From: Bacteroidia bacterium
GTDB lineage: Bacteria; Bacteroidota; Bacteroidia; B-17B0; Aurantibacillaceae
NCBI GenBank assembly: GCA_020846335.1
Contig: JADLED010000216.1
Span: forward strand, 1-38,368
Direction of reading: 5' to 3'
DNA length: 38,368 nucleotides
The first letter of the stretch is position 1. Each line of letters starts with the position of its first letter. Shown piece by piece: positions 3,066 to 24,663 of this stretch. Below the pieces are notes generated by a model. That model did no database searches and was not told the DNA's origin. It worked only from the letters and a program-made list of their open reading frames with translations. The translations under genes and the position numbers were made by a program.

Positions 3066-3069
3066 GGGA

Positions 3070-3155
3070 GGGACTGAAGGGACTGAAGGGATTGAAGGGA
3101 CTGGAGGGACTGAAGAGATCGAAGGGACAGAAGAGACTCAAGGGATTGAAGGGAT
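3070..3155 (+). repeat. 9-bp tandem repeat array 1 (GGGACTGAA type)
   Basis: Nine consecutive 9-bp units run from 3070 to 3150, followed by a decayed one. In order they are GGGACTGAA twice, GGGATTGAA, GGGACTGGA, GGGACTGAA, GAGATCGAA, GGGACAGAA, GAGACTCAA and GGGATTGAA. The array begins four bases after the uvrB stop and lies between convergent genes (uvrB and the GNAT gene). Because the unit is 9 bp, all six frames can look like repeat proteins, but none has gene context. A closely related array lies at 22308-22406. Confidence 0.95.
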
Positions 3156-3164
3156 GTGAGGCAA

Positions 3165-3192
3165 GAAACAAGATTCAAGAAAAAAGATTCAA
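3165..3192 (+). repeat. two degenerate 14-bp units (GAAACAAGATTCAA type)
   Basis: GAAACAAGATTCAA (3165-3178) is followed directly by GAAAAAAGATTCAA (3179-3192). These are variants of the GAGACAAGA(A/T/C)TCAA unit found at 3277-3304 and 22405-22432. The stretch to about 3231 that follows is an A-rich tail built from CTCAAAACTAA and CTAAAAACTT pieces. Confidence 0.8.
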
Positions 3193-3231
3193 GAGATACT
3201 CAAAACTAATAACTCAAAACTAAAAACTTAT

Positions 3232-3304
3232 TACTCTTCGTGTACCTGAGTGACCTTAGTGCCTTAGTGGTAAAGAGAGACAAGAATCAAGAGACAAGAA
3301 TCAA
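3232..3304 (+). repeat. TTAGTG-type short repeats and two perfect 14-bp units
   Basis: From about 3236 to 3272 the sequence is a run of near-repeats (CTTCGTG, CTGAGTG, CCTTAGTG, CCTTAGTGG). Two perfect copies of GAGACAAGAATCAA then follow at 3277-3290 and 3291-3304. I see no credible gene in the 264 bases between uvrB and the GNAT gene; the space is occupied by these repeats. Confidence 0.75.
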
Positions 3305-3329
3305 GAAATCGGCGTTAAAAAAGGGATTG

Positions 3330-20720: not shown

Positions 20721-21479
20721 ATGCAAAGAAAAAAAATAGTAGCCGGAAACTGGAAAATGAATACCGATTTGAACGAAGCCATAGTGTTGGTAAATTCAAT
20801 TAAACAACAGGCAACAAAATACAAGGACGTTGAAAAAGTTATTTTTCCACCCTATTTGTTTTTAACCGAACTCAGCGAAATTTTAGACGGCGAAGCAAAT
20901 TTTGCCACAGGTGCACAAAACTGCAGCGAACACAGCAAAGGAGCATTTACTGGCGAAGTGTCGGCGAATATGATTGCTTCAGTGGGCTGTGCTTATGTTT
21001 TGGTAGGTCATAGCGAACGCCGCACTTATTTTAATGAAAGCAACAACCAATTAATTGCAAAAATTAATCAGGCACTCGAAAACAATTTAAAAGTGGTGTT
21101 TTGTTTTGGCGAACAACTTGCCGAGCGGAAAAGCAATTTGCATTTTGAAACGGTGAAGCAACAACTGGAAGAAGTACTGCAACATTTTCCAAAAGAAAAG
21201 TTAAACGATTTAGTGCTTGCTTACGAACCGGTTTGGGCCATTGGCACCGGCGAAACCGCTACGCCACAGCAGGCTCAGGAAATGCACGCCTACGTGCGAA
21301 AAGTGCTAAGCGGAATTTTTGGTGCTGAAGTGGCTAATCAGTTGTCGGTGTTATACGGAGGAAGTTGCAATGCTCAAAATGCAAAAGAATTATTTGCCTG
21401 TCCCGATGTGGATGGTGGACTGATTGGCGGTGCCAGTTTAAAGGCCGATGATTTTTGTAAAATAATAGATTCTTTCTGA
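20721..21479 (+). CDS. tpiA: triosephosphate isomerase
   Basis: Glycolytic enzyme interconverting dihydroxyacetone phosphate and glyceraldehyde 3-phosphate; a homodimeric TIM barrel of 252 aa. All catalytic residues are present: N10 and K12 in AGNWKMN, H97 in VGHSERR, and E169 in YEPVWAIGTG. The flexible loop 6 follows E169, and YGGSCN and GGLIGGASL near the C-terminus form the phosphate-binding end. It lies 8 bases after the OppB-type permease, and its stop overlaps the prmA start (TGATG), a tight three-gene operon with no functional link that I know of. Confidence 0.98.
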   Translation: MQRKKIVAGNWKMNTDLNEAIVLVNSIKQQATKYKDVEKVIFPPYLFLTELSEILDGEANFATGAQNCSEHSKGAFTGEVSANMIASVGCAYVLVGHSERRTYFNESNNQLIAKINQALENNLKVVFCFGEQLAERKSNLHFETVKQQLEEVLQHFPKEKLNDLVLAYEPVWAIGTGETATPQQAQEMHAYVRKVLSGIFGAEVANQLSVLYGGSCNAQNAKELFACPDVDGGLIGGASLKADDFCKIIDSF

Positions 21480-22306
21480 TGGCTTATCTGGCGTATCAAT
21501 TTACCGTAACACCGTCGCAGCCCGGCTCCGAAATTTTAATGGCCATGATTTCGGATTGGCCCTTTGATAGTTTTGATACCTCTGAAAACGGATTTACAGC
21601 ATACATCAAAGAGGAAGATGCATCTGAAGTAAATCTTGATGATTTTCAATTCGATGATTTTAAGTTTAGCTGCAAAATAGAAAAAATTGCCACCACCAAC
21701 TGGAATGCCGAATGGGAAAAGAATTTTGAACCTGTGCTGGTGGACGATTTGCTGTGTATCCGGGCACCGTTTCATGCTAAAAATGAAACCGTAAAACACG
21801 AAATTGTGATAATGCCTAAAATGAGTTTTGGTACAGGTCACCACCAAACCACAAGGCAAATGTGCAAGGAAATGTTTTCGCATCCATTTAAAAACAAACG
21901 GGTACTCGACATGGGCTGTGGCACAGGTATTTTGGCCATACTGGCGCATTTACTTGGTGCACGCAACATAACAGGCATAGACATTGATGAGTGGAGTGTG
22001 GAAAATGCCATTGAAAATTGTCAGTCGAACAATTGCGGCGACATTGTAATATTAAAAGGCGATGCACCCATACTCGAAACGCTTGGAACATTTGACGTGA
22101 TTTTGGCCAATATCAACAAAAACATTCTTAAAAAACAAATACCTGTTTATTCTAAAATAGCTAAAGCCGGCACACACCTTTATTTGAGCGGTTTTTTTAC
22201 AACAGATGTCGAAGAACTAAAACAAGTAGCCACAGAACACGGATTTAATTTTGTGTTAGCGCACAACGAAAACGAATGGGCCATGATGCTTTTGGAGAAG
22301 GGGTGA
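21479..22306 (+). CDS. prmA: ribosomal protein L11 methyltransferase
   Basis: SAM-dependent enzyme that trimethylates ribosomal protein L11. It is 275 aa: an N-terminal substrate-binding domain (about 1-100, with NWNAEWEKNFEPV) and a C-terminal methyltransferase domain. PKMSFGTGHHQTTRQM is the family's SAM-entry motif, RVLDMGCGTGILAI is motif I, and DVILANINKNIL the NxxxN-type catalytic block. It overlaps tpiA by one base. The last codons and the TGA stop merge into the 9-bp repeat array: GGG TGA AGG GAC reads like a decayed GGGACTGAA unit, so the repeat may have set the present C-terminus. Confidence 0.95.
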   Translation: MAYLAYQFTVTPSQPGSEILMAMISDWPFDSFDTSENGFTAYIKEEDASEVNLDDFQFDDFKFSCKIEKIATTNWNAEWEKNFEPVLVDDLLCIRAPFHAKNETVKHEIVIMPKMSFGTGHHQTTRQMCKEMFSHPFKNKRVLDMGCGTGILAILAHLLGARNITGIDIDEWSVENAIENCQSNNCGDIVILKGDAPILETLGTFDVILANINKNILKKQIPVYSKIAKAGTHLYLSGFFTTDVEELKQVATEHGFNFVLAHNENEWAMMLLEKG

Positions 22307-22307
22307 A

Positions 22308-22406
22308 GGGACAGAAGGGACGGAAGGGATTGAAGAGACTTAAGGGACAGAAGGGACTTAAGGGACAGAAGGGATTGAAGGGATTGAAGAGACTTAAGGG
22401 ACGAGA
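22308..22406 (+). repeat. 9-bp tandem repeat array 2 (GGGACTGAA type)
   Basis: Ten clean 9-bp units run from 22308 to 22397, plus a decayed eleventh to 22406. In order they are GGGACAGAA, GGGACGGAA, GGGATTGAA, GAGACTTAA, GGGACAGAA, GGGACTTAA, GGGACAGAA, GGGATTGAA twice, and GAGACTTAA. The array starts one base after the prmA stop and lies between the convergent genes prmA and suhB, as array 1 lies between uvrB and the GNAT gene. Both run in the same orientation relative to the upstream gene. Confidence 0.95.
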
Positions 22407-22432
22407 GACAAGATTCAAGAGACAAGACTCAA
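22405..22432 (+). repeat. two 14-bp units (GAGACAAGATTCAA type)
   Basis: GAGACAAGATTCAA (22405-22418) is followed directly by GAGACAAGACTCAA (22419-22432). They differ at one base from each other and match the perfect pair at 3277-3304 except at one position. They follow the 9-bp array, in the same order as the module at 3165-3192. Confidence 0.9.
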
Positions 22433-22524
22433 GAGGTTTATTAAACACTAAAAACTAACAACTAAAAACTTCAAAACTCAAGAGGTTTATTAAACACTAA
22501 AAACTAACAACTAAAACCTTCAAA
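22427..22524 (+). repeat. 49-bp direct tandem duplication
   Basis: The 49 bases at 22427-22475, beginning ACTCAAGAGGTTTATTAAAC, are repeated at 22476-22524 with one mismatch (AAAACT versus AAACCT near the end). The duplication covers the A-rich tail of the repeat locus and stops two bases before the suhB stop codon. The near identity indicates a recent event, either slippage or an unequal exchange. Confidence 0.95.
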
Positions 22525-22526
22525 AG

Positions 22527-23327
22527 CTAGTTCTTAAATTCTTGTTGAATCACCGAATTAAATTCGTTAAGCAGAGCGCCGTTTGTACACGAAATTTCTT
22601 TTCCAAACAGCCAGTTATCTCCACCACTAAAATCATTCACAGTTCCACCGGCTTCCTGAACAATCAAACCTCCGGCGGCCACATCCCATGCGTTGAGGTT
22701 GTATTCAAAAAAGGCATCCACTCTTCCGCAAGCCAAATAACAAAGGTCGGCAGCCGCGGCACCAATTCTACGCAAGCCATGAGTATGTTTCATAAAATAG
22801 GTGAGCGCCGAGAGGTAGTTTTCCAACCTCGAAAAATTATAAATCGGAAACCCAGTGGCAATAAGGCTTTCAGATAGTGATGCTCTTGCCGACACCCGAA
22901 TTGCTTTTCCGTTAAGCCAGGCGCCACATCCATTTTCAGCATAAAAACATTCGTCGCGGCTCACTTCGTAAACCACACCGGCCACCACTTTGGTATGATG
23001 CACCAGTGCAATGCTCACGGCGTAGCAGGCGATACCATGCACAAAATTGGTGGTGCCATCCAAAGGGTCCACAATCCAATTGTATTCTTTTTTTTCGTTA
23101 AGGGTGTTTTCCTCAACTATAAATCCGGCTTCAGGGAACAGTGCGGCTAAATCAGTCACAATCAGTTGTTCAGAGGTTTTATCCACATAACTTACCAAAT
23201 CGTTAAGCCCTTTTACTTCAACTTTTTCGTATTGAAAATTTTCGCGTTCCTGCCTAATGAAAGCACCGGCTTTTTTGGCCGTATCTATCATTCCTTTGAG
23301 AAGTGGGCTCAGTGCTTGTTTTTCCAT
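22527..23327 (-). CDS. suhB: inositol monophosphatase family protein (SuhB type)
   Basis: Mg-dependent phosphatase that removes phosphate from myo-inositol 1-phosphate or related sugar phosphates, 266 aa. The metal-binding signatures are VEEN (71-74), WIVDPLDGTTNF (84-95, with D87, D90, G91, T92) and the C-terminal WDVAAGGLIVQEAGG. I start it at ATG 23327, which leaves one base after the pyrC stop; an upstream TTG at 23339 would add MVPS inside pyrC. SuhB also acts in rRNA transcription in some proteobacteria, but nothing here shows that role. It is co-transcribed with pyrC and ends beside the 49-bp duplication. Confidence 0.93.
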   Translation of the reverse strand: MEKQALSPLLKGMIDTAKKAGAFIRQERENFQYEKVEVKGLNDLVSYVDKTSEQLIVTDLAALFPEAGFIVEENTLNEKKEYNWIVDPLDGTTNFVHGIACYAVSIALVHHTKVVAGVVYEVSRDECFYAENGCGAWLNGKAIRVSARASLSESLIATGFPIYNFSRLENYLSALTYFMKHTHGLRRIGAAAADLCYLACGRVDAFFEYNLNAWDVAAGGLIVQEAGGTVNDFSGGDNWLFGKEISCTNGALLNEFNSVIQQEFKN

Positions 23328-23328
23328 A

Positions 23329-24663
23329 CTAGGCACCAAATGTTAAACGGCTTCCAAATTCCGATTCATCAAAAACGCCATTGTTGTAAACCAGATGTCC
23401 GTTTACAAATGTTTTTTCGATACTGCTTTTAAAAGTGTGTCCTTCAAAGGGACTCCAGCCGCATTTGTATAATATGTTTTGTTTAGTAACAGTAGTTGGC
23501 TTGTGTAAATTTACCAATACCAAATCGGCAAAATAGCCTTCGCGAATGTAGCCCCTGTTTTGAATACGGAACAAATCGGCCACATTGTGACTCATTTTTT
23601 GCACCACTTTTTCGATGCTGATTTTTTTTGCATGATAAAAATCGAGCATGGCTAAAATGCTGTGTTGCACCAATGGTCCGCCACTTGGCGCCTGAAGGTA
23701 AGGAAGATTTTTTTCGTCGAGTGTGTGTGGTGCGTGGTCGGTGGCAATCACATCGATGGTGTCGTTTAAAACGGCTTCAAATATTTTTTCGCGGTCGAAG
23801 GCCGTTTTAACTGATGGATTCCATTTAATAAAATTGCCTTTGGTTTTATAATCTTCATCGCTAAACCATAAATGATGAATACAGGCTTCGGCGGTAATGC
23901 GTTTTTCTTTTAAGGGAATTTTGTTGCTAAACAAGGCCAGTTCTTTGGCAGTTGAAATGTGCAGTATATGCAAACGGGTGTTGTATTTTTTTGCCAAATC
24001 CACCGCCATGGATGAGGATTTATAACAGGCTTCTTCGCTACGAATAATTGGATGAAAATAAGCGGGTAGGTCTTCGCCGTATTGCTCCACAATGCGTTTT
24101 TGCGTTTCTTTTACCAATGGATCAAACTCACAGTGGGTGGCAATGAGGGCATTTACCTTTGAGAAAAAGCCTTCCAACACTTCCTGATGATCCACCAGCA
24201 TATCGCCGGTTGAAGAGCCCATAAAAATTTTGAGGCCACACACTTTCGAATAATCCACTTTAAGTGTTTCCTCAAGATTGTGATTGGTGCCGCCCATAAA
24301 AAACGAATAATTGGCCAGCGAACAAACCGCAGCGCGTTGGTATTTTTTTTCAAGTTCTACAACCGTTGTGCTTTGCGGATTGGTGTTGGGCATTTCCATG
24401 TAAGAGGTAACCCCCCCGGCCACAGCGGCTTTGGCTTCGGTGTAAATTTCGCCTTTGTGTGTGAGGCCCGGCTCACGAAAATGCACCTGATCGTCGATGG
24501 CACCAGGTAATAGAACCAGTCCTTCGGCGTTAATTTCTGTGGCACCCGCAACCGAATCAATGTGGCGGTCTATTTTAGAAATTATTTTATTTTCTATCAA
24601 AACGTCGTAAATGCCGGATTCACCTTCATTTACAACTGTGGCGTTTTTTATTAAGTATTTCAT
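23329..24663 (-). CDS. pyrC: dihydroorotase
   Basis: Cyclises carbamoyl aspartate to dihydroorotate in pyrimidine synthesis; a class-I-like amidohydrolase of 444 aa. Motifs are IDDQVHFREPGLTHKGE (57-72), EMPNTNPQST (90-99), LHILHIST, ATDHAPH (the metal-binding Asp) and the C-terminal ADLVLVNL. The usual HxH metal pair reads QVH, with Gln59 in place of the first His and H61 kept. I recall this as common in Bacteroidota dihydroorotases, but cannot check it here. The ATG is at 24663 with a TATTTTTG box one base upstream. suhB follows after one base. Confidence 0.92.
   Translation of the reverse strand: MKYLIKNATVVNEGESGIYDVLIENKIISKIDRHIDSVAGATEINAEGLVLLPGAIDDQVHFREPGLTHKGEIYTEAKAAVAGGVTSYMEMPNTNPQSTTVVELEKKYQRAAVCSLANYSFFMGGTNHNLEETLKVDYSKVCGLKIFMGSSTGDMLVDHQEVLEGFFSKVNALIATHCEFDPLVKETQKRIVEQYGEDLPAYFHPIIRSEEACYKSSSMAVDLAKKYNTRLHILHISTAKELALFSNKIPLKEKRITAEACIHHLWFSDEDYKTKGNFIKWNPSVKTAFDREKIFEAVLNDTIDVIATDHAPHTLDEKNLPYLQAPSGGPLVQHSILAMLDFYHAKKISIEKVVQKMSHNVADLFRIQNRGYIREGYFADLVLVNLHKPTTVTKQNILYKCGWSPFEGHTFKSSIEKTFVNGHLVYNNGVFDESEFGSRLTFGA

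Follow-up and report, generated by a model that had tools for sequence, protein, structure and literature searches.

Repeat arrays behind prmA and uvrB in a member of the Bacteroidia and their likeness to the arms of S23-bearing intergenic elements

The subject of this study is a block of short tandem repeats between prmA and suhB in a 38,368-nucleotide contig from a member of the Bacteroidia (GenBank JADLED010000216.1, assembly GCA_020846335.1), which was analysed at its full length and is referred to as the window; its genome is G000, and other G and L numbers denote other genomes and loci. The block is probably (we put the probability at roughly 0.6) a solo array, devoid of an S23 gene, of repeat types that elsewhere form both arms of an element resembling the intervening sequences (IVS) of 23S rRNA. 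The best reading of the uvrB locus in the same window is, similarly, that it carries the arms of IVS-like elements without S23. The full element opens with a short tandem-repeat array at a host gene's stop codon, continues with a gene of the S23/23S_rRNA_IVP family (PF05635) and closes with that array in reverse complement, just before the next host gene. Taken alone, the arrays are of a known kind, namely intergenic G-rich or heptamer direct repeats such as the short tandemly repeated repetitive (STRR) sequences, GGGNATC and TAACTGA. The link between short tandem repeats and S23 genes is new; no paper connecting S23/IVP with these repeats was found in the literature searched, which left out most subscription papers.

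S23 genes bracketed by inverted arrays

S23 genes are bracketed by inverted arrays with units that are specific to the locus or subfamily, the elements so formed are predicted to fold as a single stem, and decayed elements with one arm occur. One shared array site lies between miaB and a gene encoding a four-helix-bundle protein (PF05635/TIGR02436, related in sequence to PDB 2GSC). The miaB gap contains repeats in genomes that have S23, and is short and repeat-free in most genomes that do not; behind the S23 gene the repeats run on as their reverse complement, with a unit that varies with the S23 subgroup. S23 genes were then selected by protein similarity alone and 90 flank sets compared, which revealed the same bracketing by inverted arrays of an own unit at many other sites, including before sdhB, in nuo operons and behind suf/isc-type genes (names read from translations). 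Scores between upstream flanks and reverse-complemented downstream flanks had a median of 15 at S23 genes as opposed to 10 at control genes (p=4e-10), and own flanks beat cross-locus flanks in 77 of the 90 S23 loci (p=2e-14). Transcripts of the S23-bearing elements are predicted to form one long stem that encloses the S23 open reading frame (ORF; z=-4.0 and -3.3). Where S23 occurs at other sites, its repeat type goes with it (L328, and L422/L439). Decay is evident at L308 (G068), where nothing but the 3' arm and the final codons of S23 is retained, and at L305 (G078), which retains a truncated S23 start.

Outside the family, most of 14 plasmid S23 genes identified by protein match only have the same inverted-array layout, eight of them being individually significant. 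The layout was seen in Nostoc, Anabaena, Calothrix, Stanieria and Riemerella, and the units associated with plasmid S23 genes include GGGAGTA/TCCCTAC in Nostoc, GGGTGTA in Calothrix, GGCAGAA in Stanieria, AAGGTTCAAGG in Riemerella and GGGAAAA in Geminocystis; a Pseudanabaena plasmid S23 gene, which has long arrays in the same orientation, is an exception. S23 genes with short-repeat flanks were also observed inside cyanobacterial plasmid CRISPR-cas operons (L442, L447, L449); in Anabaena sp. 90 and Pseudanabaena galeata they lie between cas6 and cas4, and in Picosynechococcus PCC 7003 between cas10 and cmr3.

A rather unlikely alternative, although the one that survives best, is that the arrays are ordinary expandable STRR-like repeats that arise by slippage or duplication in non-coding gaps, and that S23 merely inserts into or survives beside such gaps. 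STRR-like repeats are known from cyanobacteria, Xanthomonas, Beggiatoaceae and Bacteroidetes (PMC4679880, PMC4692102), most arrays have no S23 gene nearby, and array lengths differ between orthologous sites, all of which would fit. However, insertion into an existing direct array predicts flanks in the same orientation, whereas those of S23 genes are inverted and locus-specific; the miaB gaps without S23 are mostly repeat-free, and variation within the unit is strongly position-dependent, neither of which is in keeping with this alternative.

Modules of the prmA and uvrB blocks

Three modules, A, B and C, make up the prmA block (Table 1), and comparison of their sequences with the 90 S23 flank sets points to module A being of the type that forms the arms of a particular S23 subgroup in five relatives. 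At both prmA and uvrB, the five flank sets that rank highest against module A are L323, L322, L324, L321 and L325, in the same orientation, and all belong to G058-type S23 elements (genomes G035, G076, G080, G058 and G071). Arrays of module A occur in five of the six genomes with a G058-type S23 gene versus 19 of the 81 others (p=0.006). Modules B and C appear, on the same comparison, to resemble arms of S23 genes within G000 itself. Against module C, L421, the contig C240 S23 gene of G000, ranks second of 90; module B matches CAAGANN arms, with the G000 miaB S23 gene (contig C302) ranking tenth at prmA and fifth at uvrB. Solo downstream modules also match the S23 flanks of their own genome overall (Fisher p=2e-6).

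Several results weigh against the view that the prmA array is an S23-less block of such arms. G000, which is 94% complete, has four PF05635 genes and none has A-type arms, which makes the A part of the prmA block an orphan in its own genome, and the A-rich genomes G053, G056 and G054 lack a close G058-type S23 gene. The test of solo modules against own S23 flanks is individually significant in only 7 of 60 cases, partly owing to A-type flanks. Only 43 of 89 S23 loci reach the 95th percentile of the controls, and at different sites S23 relatedness and flank similarity correlate only weakly in a Mantel test (rho 0.08, p=0.04). It should also be said that recognition of the unit by S23, spreading of repeats by S23 and an action of S23 on RNA are all inferred. 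Two simple rules were rejected: A arrays are not confined to genomes with G058-type S23, many A genomes being without it, and S23 does not lie beside most solo arrays, most being without S23 nearby.

The preliminary description had placed at the prmA stop codon an array of ten units, followed by two 14-bp units and an A-rich tail. Its place and merger with the stop codon were borne out, in that the first 9-bp unit opens with the prmA TGA (22304-22306; from reading the sequence), but Tandem Repeats Finder (TRF) gave 11 units, and the tail is a 49-bp direct duplication (22423-22525, 96% match). The uvrB locus (3069-3306), which had been taken to have the same module order, does repeat A, B and C in the order found at prmA, but continues with a CTTAGTG-type block (D) and a second B. 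Pfam confirmed PrmA and the convergent inositol monophosphatase, and at the other locus UvrB and a convergent GNAT gene. Module D ends in GGTAAA, and related sequences were seen elsewhere in the genome and in the family; an S23 partner was not identified for it. A search with a 27-nt module C pattern matched only the two copies in the window, and no S23/IVP gene lies within the window.

Table 1. Genes and repeat modules at the prmA and uvrB loci (window coordinates)
Feature	Coordinates	Strand	Description	Basis
uvrB module A	3069..3154	+		TRF and sequence
uvrB module B	3158..3197	+		TRF, sequence, flank comparison
uvrB module C	3196..3243	+		TRF, sequence, flank comparison
uvrB module D	3240..3275	+	CTGAGTGAC/CTTAGTGC/CTTAGTGG type repeat	
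uvrB second module B	3276..3308	+		TRF, flank comparison
prmA	21479..22306	+	TGA stop opens first repeat unit	Pfam PF06325, E=2.4e-47
prmA module A	22304..22402	+	11 x 9 bp, consensus AGRGAYNNA	TRF, own-genome pattern search
prmA module B	22404..22436	+	heptamers CAAGANN, ~4-5 copies	TRF (14-bp unit, 22404-22435, 2.3 copies)
prmA module C	22437..22526	+	ACTAAAA-type heptamers plus AGAGGTTTATTAAACA linker, two copies of 49-bp unit	
suhB/inositol monophosphatase (IMPase)	22527..23339	-	convergent to prmA	Pfam PF00459, E=3.1e-64

Spread and anatomy of the arrays

Arrays of module A were found on 13 contigs of G000, two of them in the window, giving about 14 loci in all; the A pattern has 108 matches in this genome and the reversed pattern none, so the matches are not due to chance. 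Contigs C168, C308, C45 and C50 end in or next to arrays, hence the number and length of arrays are probably underestimated. In nearly all of the A loci of G000 a B module follows on the same strand, with C next in several and D in four, and modules B, D and E are almost confined to A loci, as judged from other G000 contigs, of which a few hundred kb were sampled. In the family, 24 of 87 genomes and 3 of 10 genera bear A arrays, patchily within the genus (control 0). Of 395 genomes sampled across the phylum 11 have them, in several cases with the sister unit ARGGACNNA. Arrays of 9-mers with this sister unit, and with free positions after the C, were also noted in a distant Bacteroidota family (G319, G243, G153 and others). 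AAGGGAYTN arrays occur outside the family in named genomes, including Marinilabiliales, Verrucomicrobia and Lentisphaerae; no S23 gene was found near them except at L252, which bears the same miaB stretch as G035. In metagenome-assembled genomes of Lentisphaeria and Marinilabiliales (L243, L240, L256, L258), AAGGGAYTN adjoins other 7-mer arrays (ATTCGGA; TCCGGTC, CCATGCC), the same mixed-module habit as that of the G000 arrays.

The suggestion of dispersed, directional intergenic arrays was upheld, and the proposed comparison of orthologous prmA 3' ends found the prmA-suhB gaps of relatives to be array-free, including that of one genome bearing arrays elsewhere; these empty gaps are too diverged for exact junctions to be placed. 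A specific association with convergent 3' ends did not survive. From 93 loci 109 arrays were parsed, of which 89 are intergenic, and among the latter 48 lie in sense and 16 in antisense in co-oriented gaps (p=8e-5), with 14 in convergent and two in divergent gaps. The common rule is anchoring at the upstream stop codon: 52 of 68 arrays with an upstream gene on the same strand start within -30 to +20 nt of its stop. Arrays in convergent gaps mostly lie close to the gene they follow and farther from the facing gene, which argues that their polarity is intrinsic. Some loci comprise an array followed by its own reverse complement. Array sites are common to different genomes, even genera, with differing lengths and free positions, and in pairs of congeneric genomes A-type arrays also lie inside or overlap ORFs at orthologous sites (L164, L167; L170, L198).

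Variation within the unit depends on position: in TRF arrays chosen without reference to any motif, A1, R2, G4, A5 and A9 are 1-5% variable, as against 20-34% at positions 3 and 6-8 (chi-square p~2e-85). Such fixed and free positions are unlike neutral decay of identical copies.

It is improbable that the arrays are 3'-untranslated-region regulatory elements, acting as G-quadruplexes or as RNA sites for a host RNA-binding protein at gene ends. The stop-codon anchoring and the excess of sense arrays in co-oriented gaps (48 of 64) are what would be expected of such elements; moreover, the prmA array fits the G-quadruplex pattern G3N1-7x4 and the core positions look constrained. Nevertheless, presence is patchy among species of one genus, and position 3 is often A. 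A G-quadruplex was ruled out as the general function, the pattern being present in only 15 of 89 arrays, as was CsrA as a reader of AGGGA, PF02599 not having been found in G000. A folded RNA at prmA was likewise ruled out, since the block has no stable predicted fold (z=+0.5), nor does it have complementary termini that form a stem. Similarly poor are the prospects of the 9-bp/14-bp/tail block being a single composite mobile element, as had been proposed: A is followed by B in nearly all G000 A loci, with C and D in several, on one strand, the other modules are rare in the A-free sample, and orthologous gaps are empty, but individual modules are found on their own, as the arms of different S23 genes, the second module after A varies between genomes and no ends were identified.

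Relation to known systems and significance

The prmA block has the features of STRR sequences, being composed of degenerate 6-9 bp tandem units that are intergenic, occur at many loci per genome, lie in sense and overlap a stop codon. The preliminary description likened its niche to that of repetitive extragenic palindromic (REP) sequences and bacterial interspersed mosaic elements (BIME), to which it is unrelated in sequence; the comparison is apt on both counts, but published heptamer and STRR families are closer. The STRR/GGGNATC and GGGGA(C/T)T heptamers of Xanthomonas and Nostoc, as described by Rehm et al. (2015; PMC4692102), are also intergenic and scattered, with degenerate short units and a G-rich strand, and many are in sense, near or overlapping stop codons, with occasional inverted pairs. 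They differ in that the present arrays have a 9-bp AGRGAYNNA unit followed by different heptamer modules and mostly cannot form G-quadruplexes; a link to S23 was not found in the parts of that paper that were consulted. TAACTGA heptamers (MacGregor 2015; PMC4679880) share the intergenic direct repeats, including in Bacteroidetes, a patchy phylogeny and sites absent in close relatives, but have one fixed unit and lie mostly upstream of start codons, and the paper makes no mention of four-helix or S23 proteins.

The 23S rRNA IVS of Coxiella burnetii has terminal inverted repeats, is excised by RNase III and carries tandem GACAGAT heptamers immediately upstream of S23p; the function of the S23/IVP family is stated as not known (PMC4990558). 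The S23 loci described here share with it an S23 ORF inside inverted terminal repeats that form a long stem, with tandem heptamers upstream. However, the Coxiella-type IVS lies within rRNA genes, whereas the present elements lie between protein genes, and prmA and uvrB have arms only; indeed, the prmA block has neither the S23 gene nor the stem of an IVS. REP/BIME sequences and their RAYT (TnpA-REP) transposases have in common with S23 loci one gene that lies between inverted copies of its cognate repeat, together with dispersed repeats that lack the gene (PMC2817692, PMC8266576), but the repeats described here, including that at prmA, are tandem and not palindromic, and the gene that they flank encodes a four-helix bundle (PF05635) and not a HuH transposase. 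S23-bearing loci are IVS-like in layout and RAYT/REP-like in logic. Avd, an accessory protein of diversity-generating retroelements, is reported to be homologous to PF05635 proteins (PMC10053308); unlike in that setting, no reverse transcriptase was noted at the S23 loci, although none was searched for.

With regard to mechanism, S23, a four-helix bundle with a pentameric solved relative, may recognise its own repeat unit, which would account for the combination of a fixed core and free positions. Solo arrays such as that at prmA could have arisen by loss of the S23 gene or by arms spreading without it, and the sense orientation and stop-codon anchoring suggest that the arrays may have a role at the level of RNA. 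More tentatively, S23/IVP proteins and short tandem repeats could form a widespread partnership akin to REP-RAYT, in which each S23 lineage recognises its own unit of 7-9 nt. Inverted arrays of that unit would then form both ends of an IVS-like element, whose landing places would be the gaps from stop to start codon (and 23S rRNA), and S23 would have spread gene-less derivatives of it, among them the STRR arrays known in Bacteroidota, cyanobacteria and others.

To our knowledge, STRR heptamers have been without an explanation since about 1990. The data suggest that the STRR repeats and the S23 family, two long-standing puzzles, belong to one and the same element. Should S23 prove to be the cognate factor of the repeats on either side of its gene, a single small protein and a single oligonucleotide would suffice to test both STRR and S23/IVP, and the intervening sequences of 23S rRNA would be a particular instance of an intergenic element of general occurrence.
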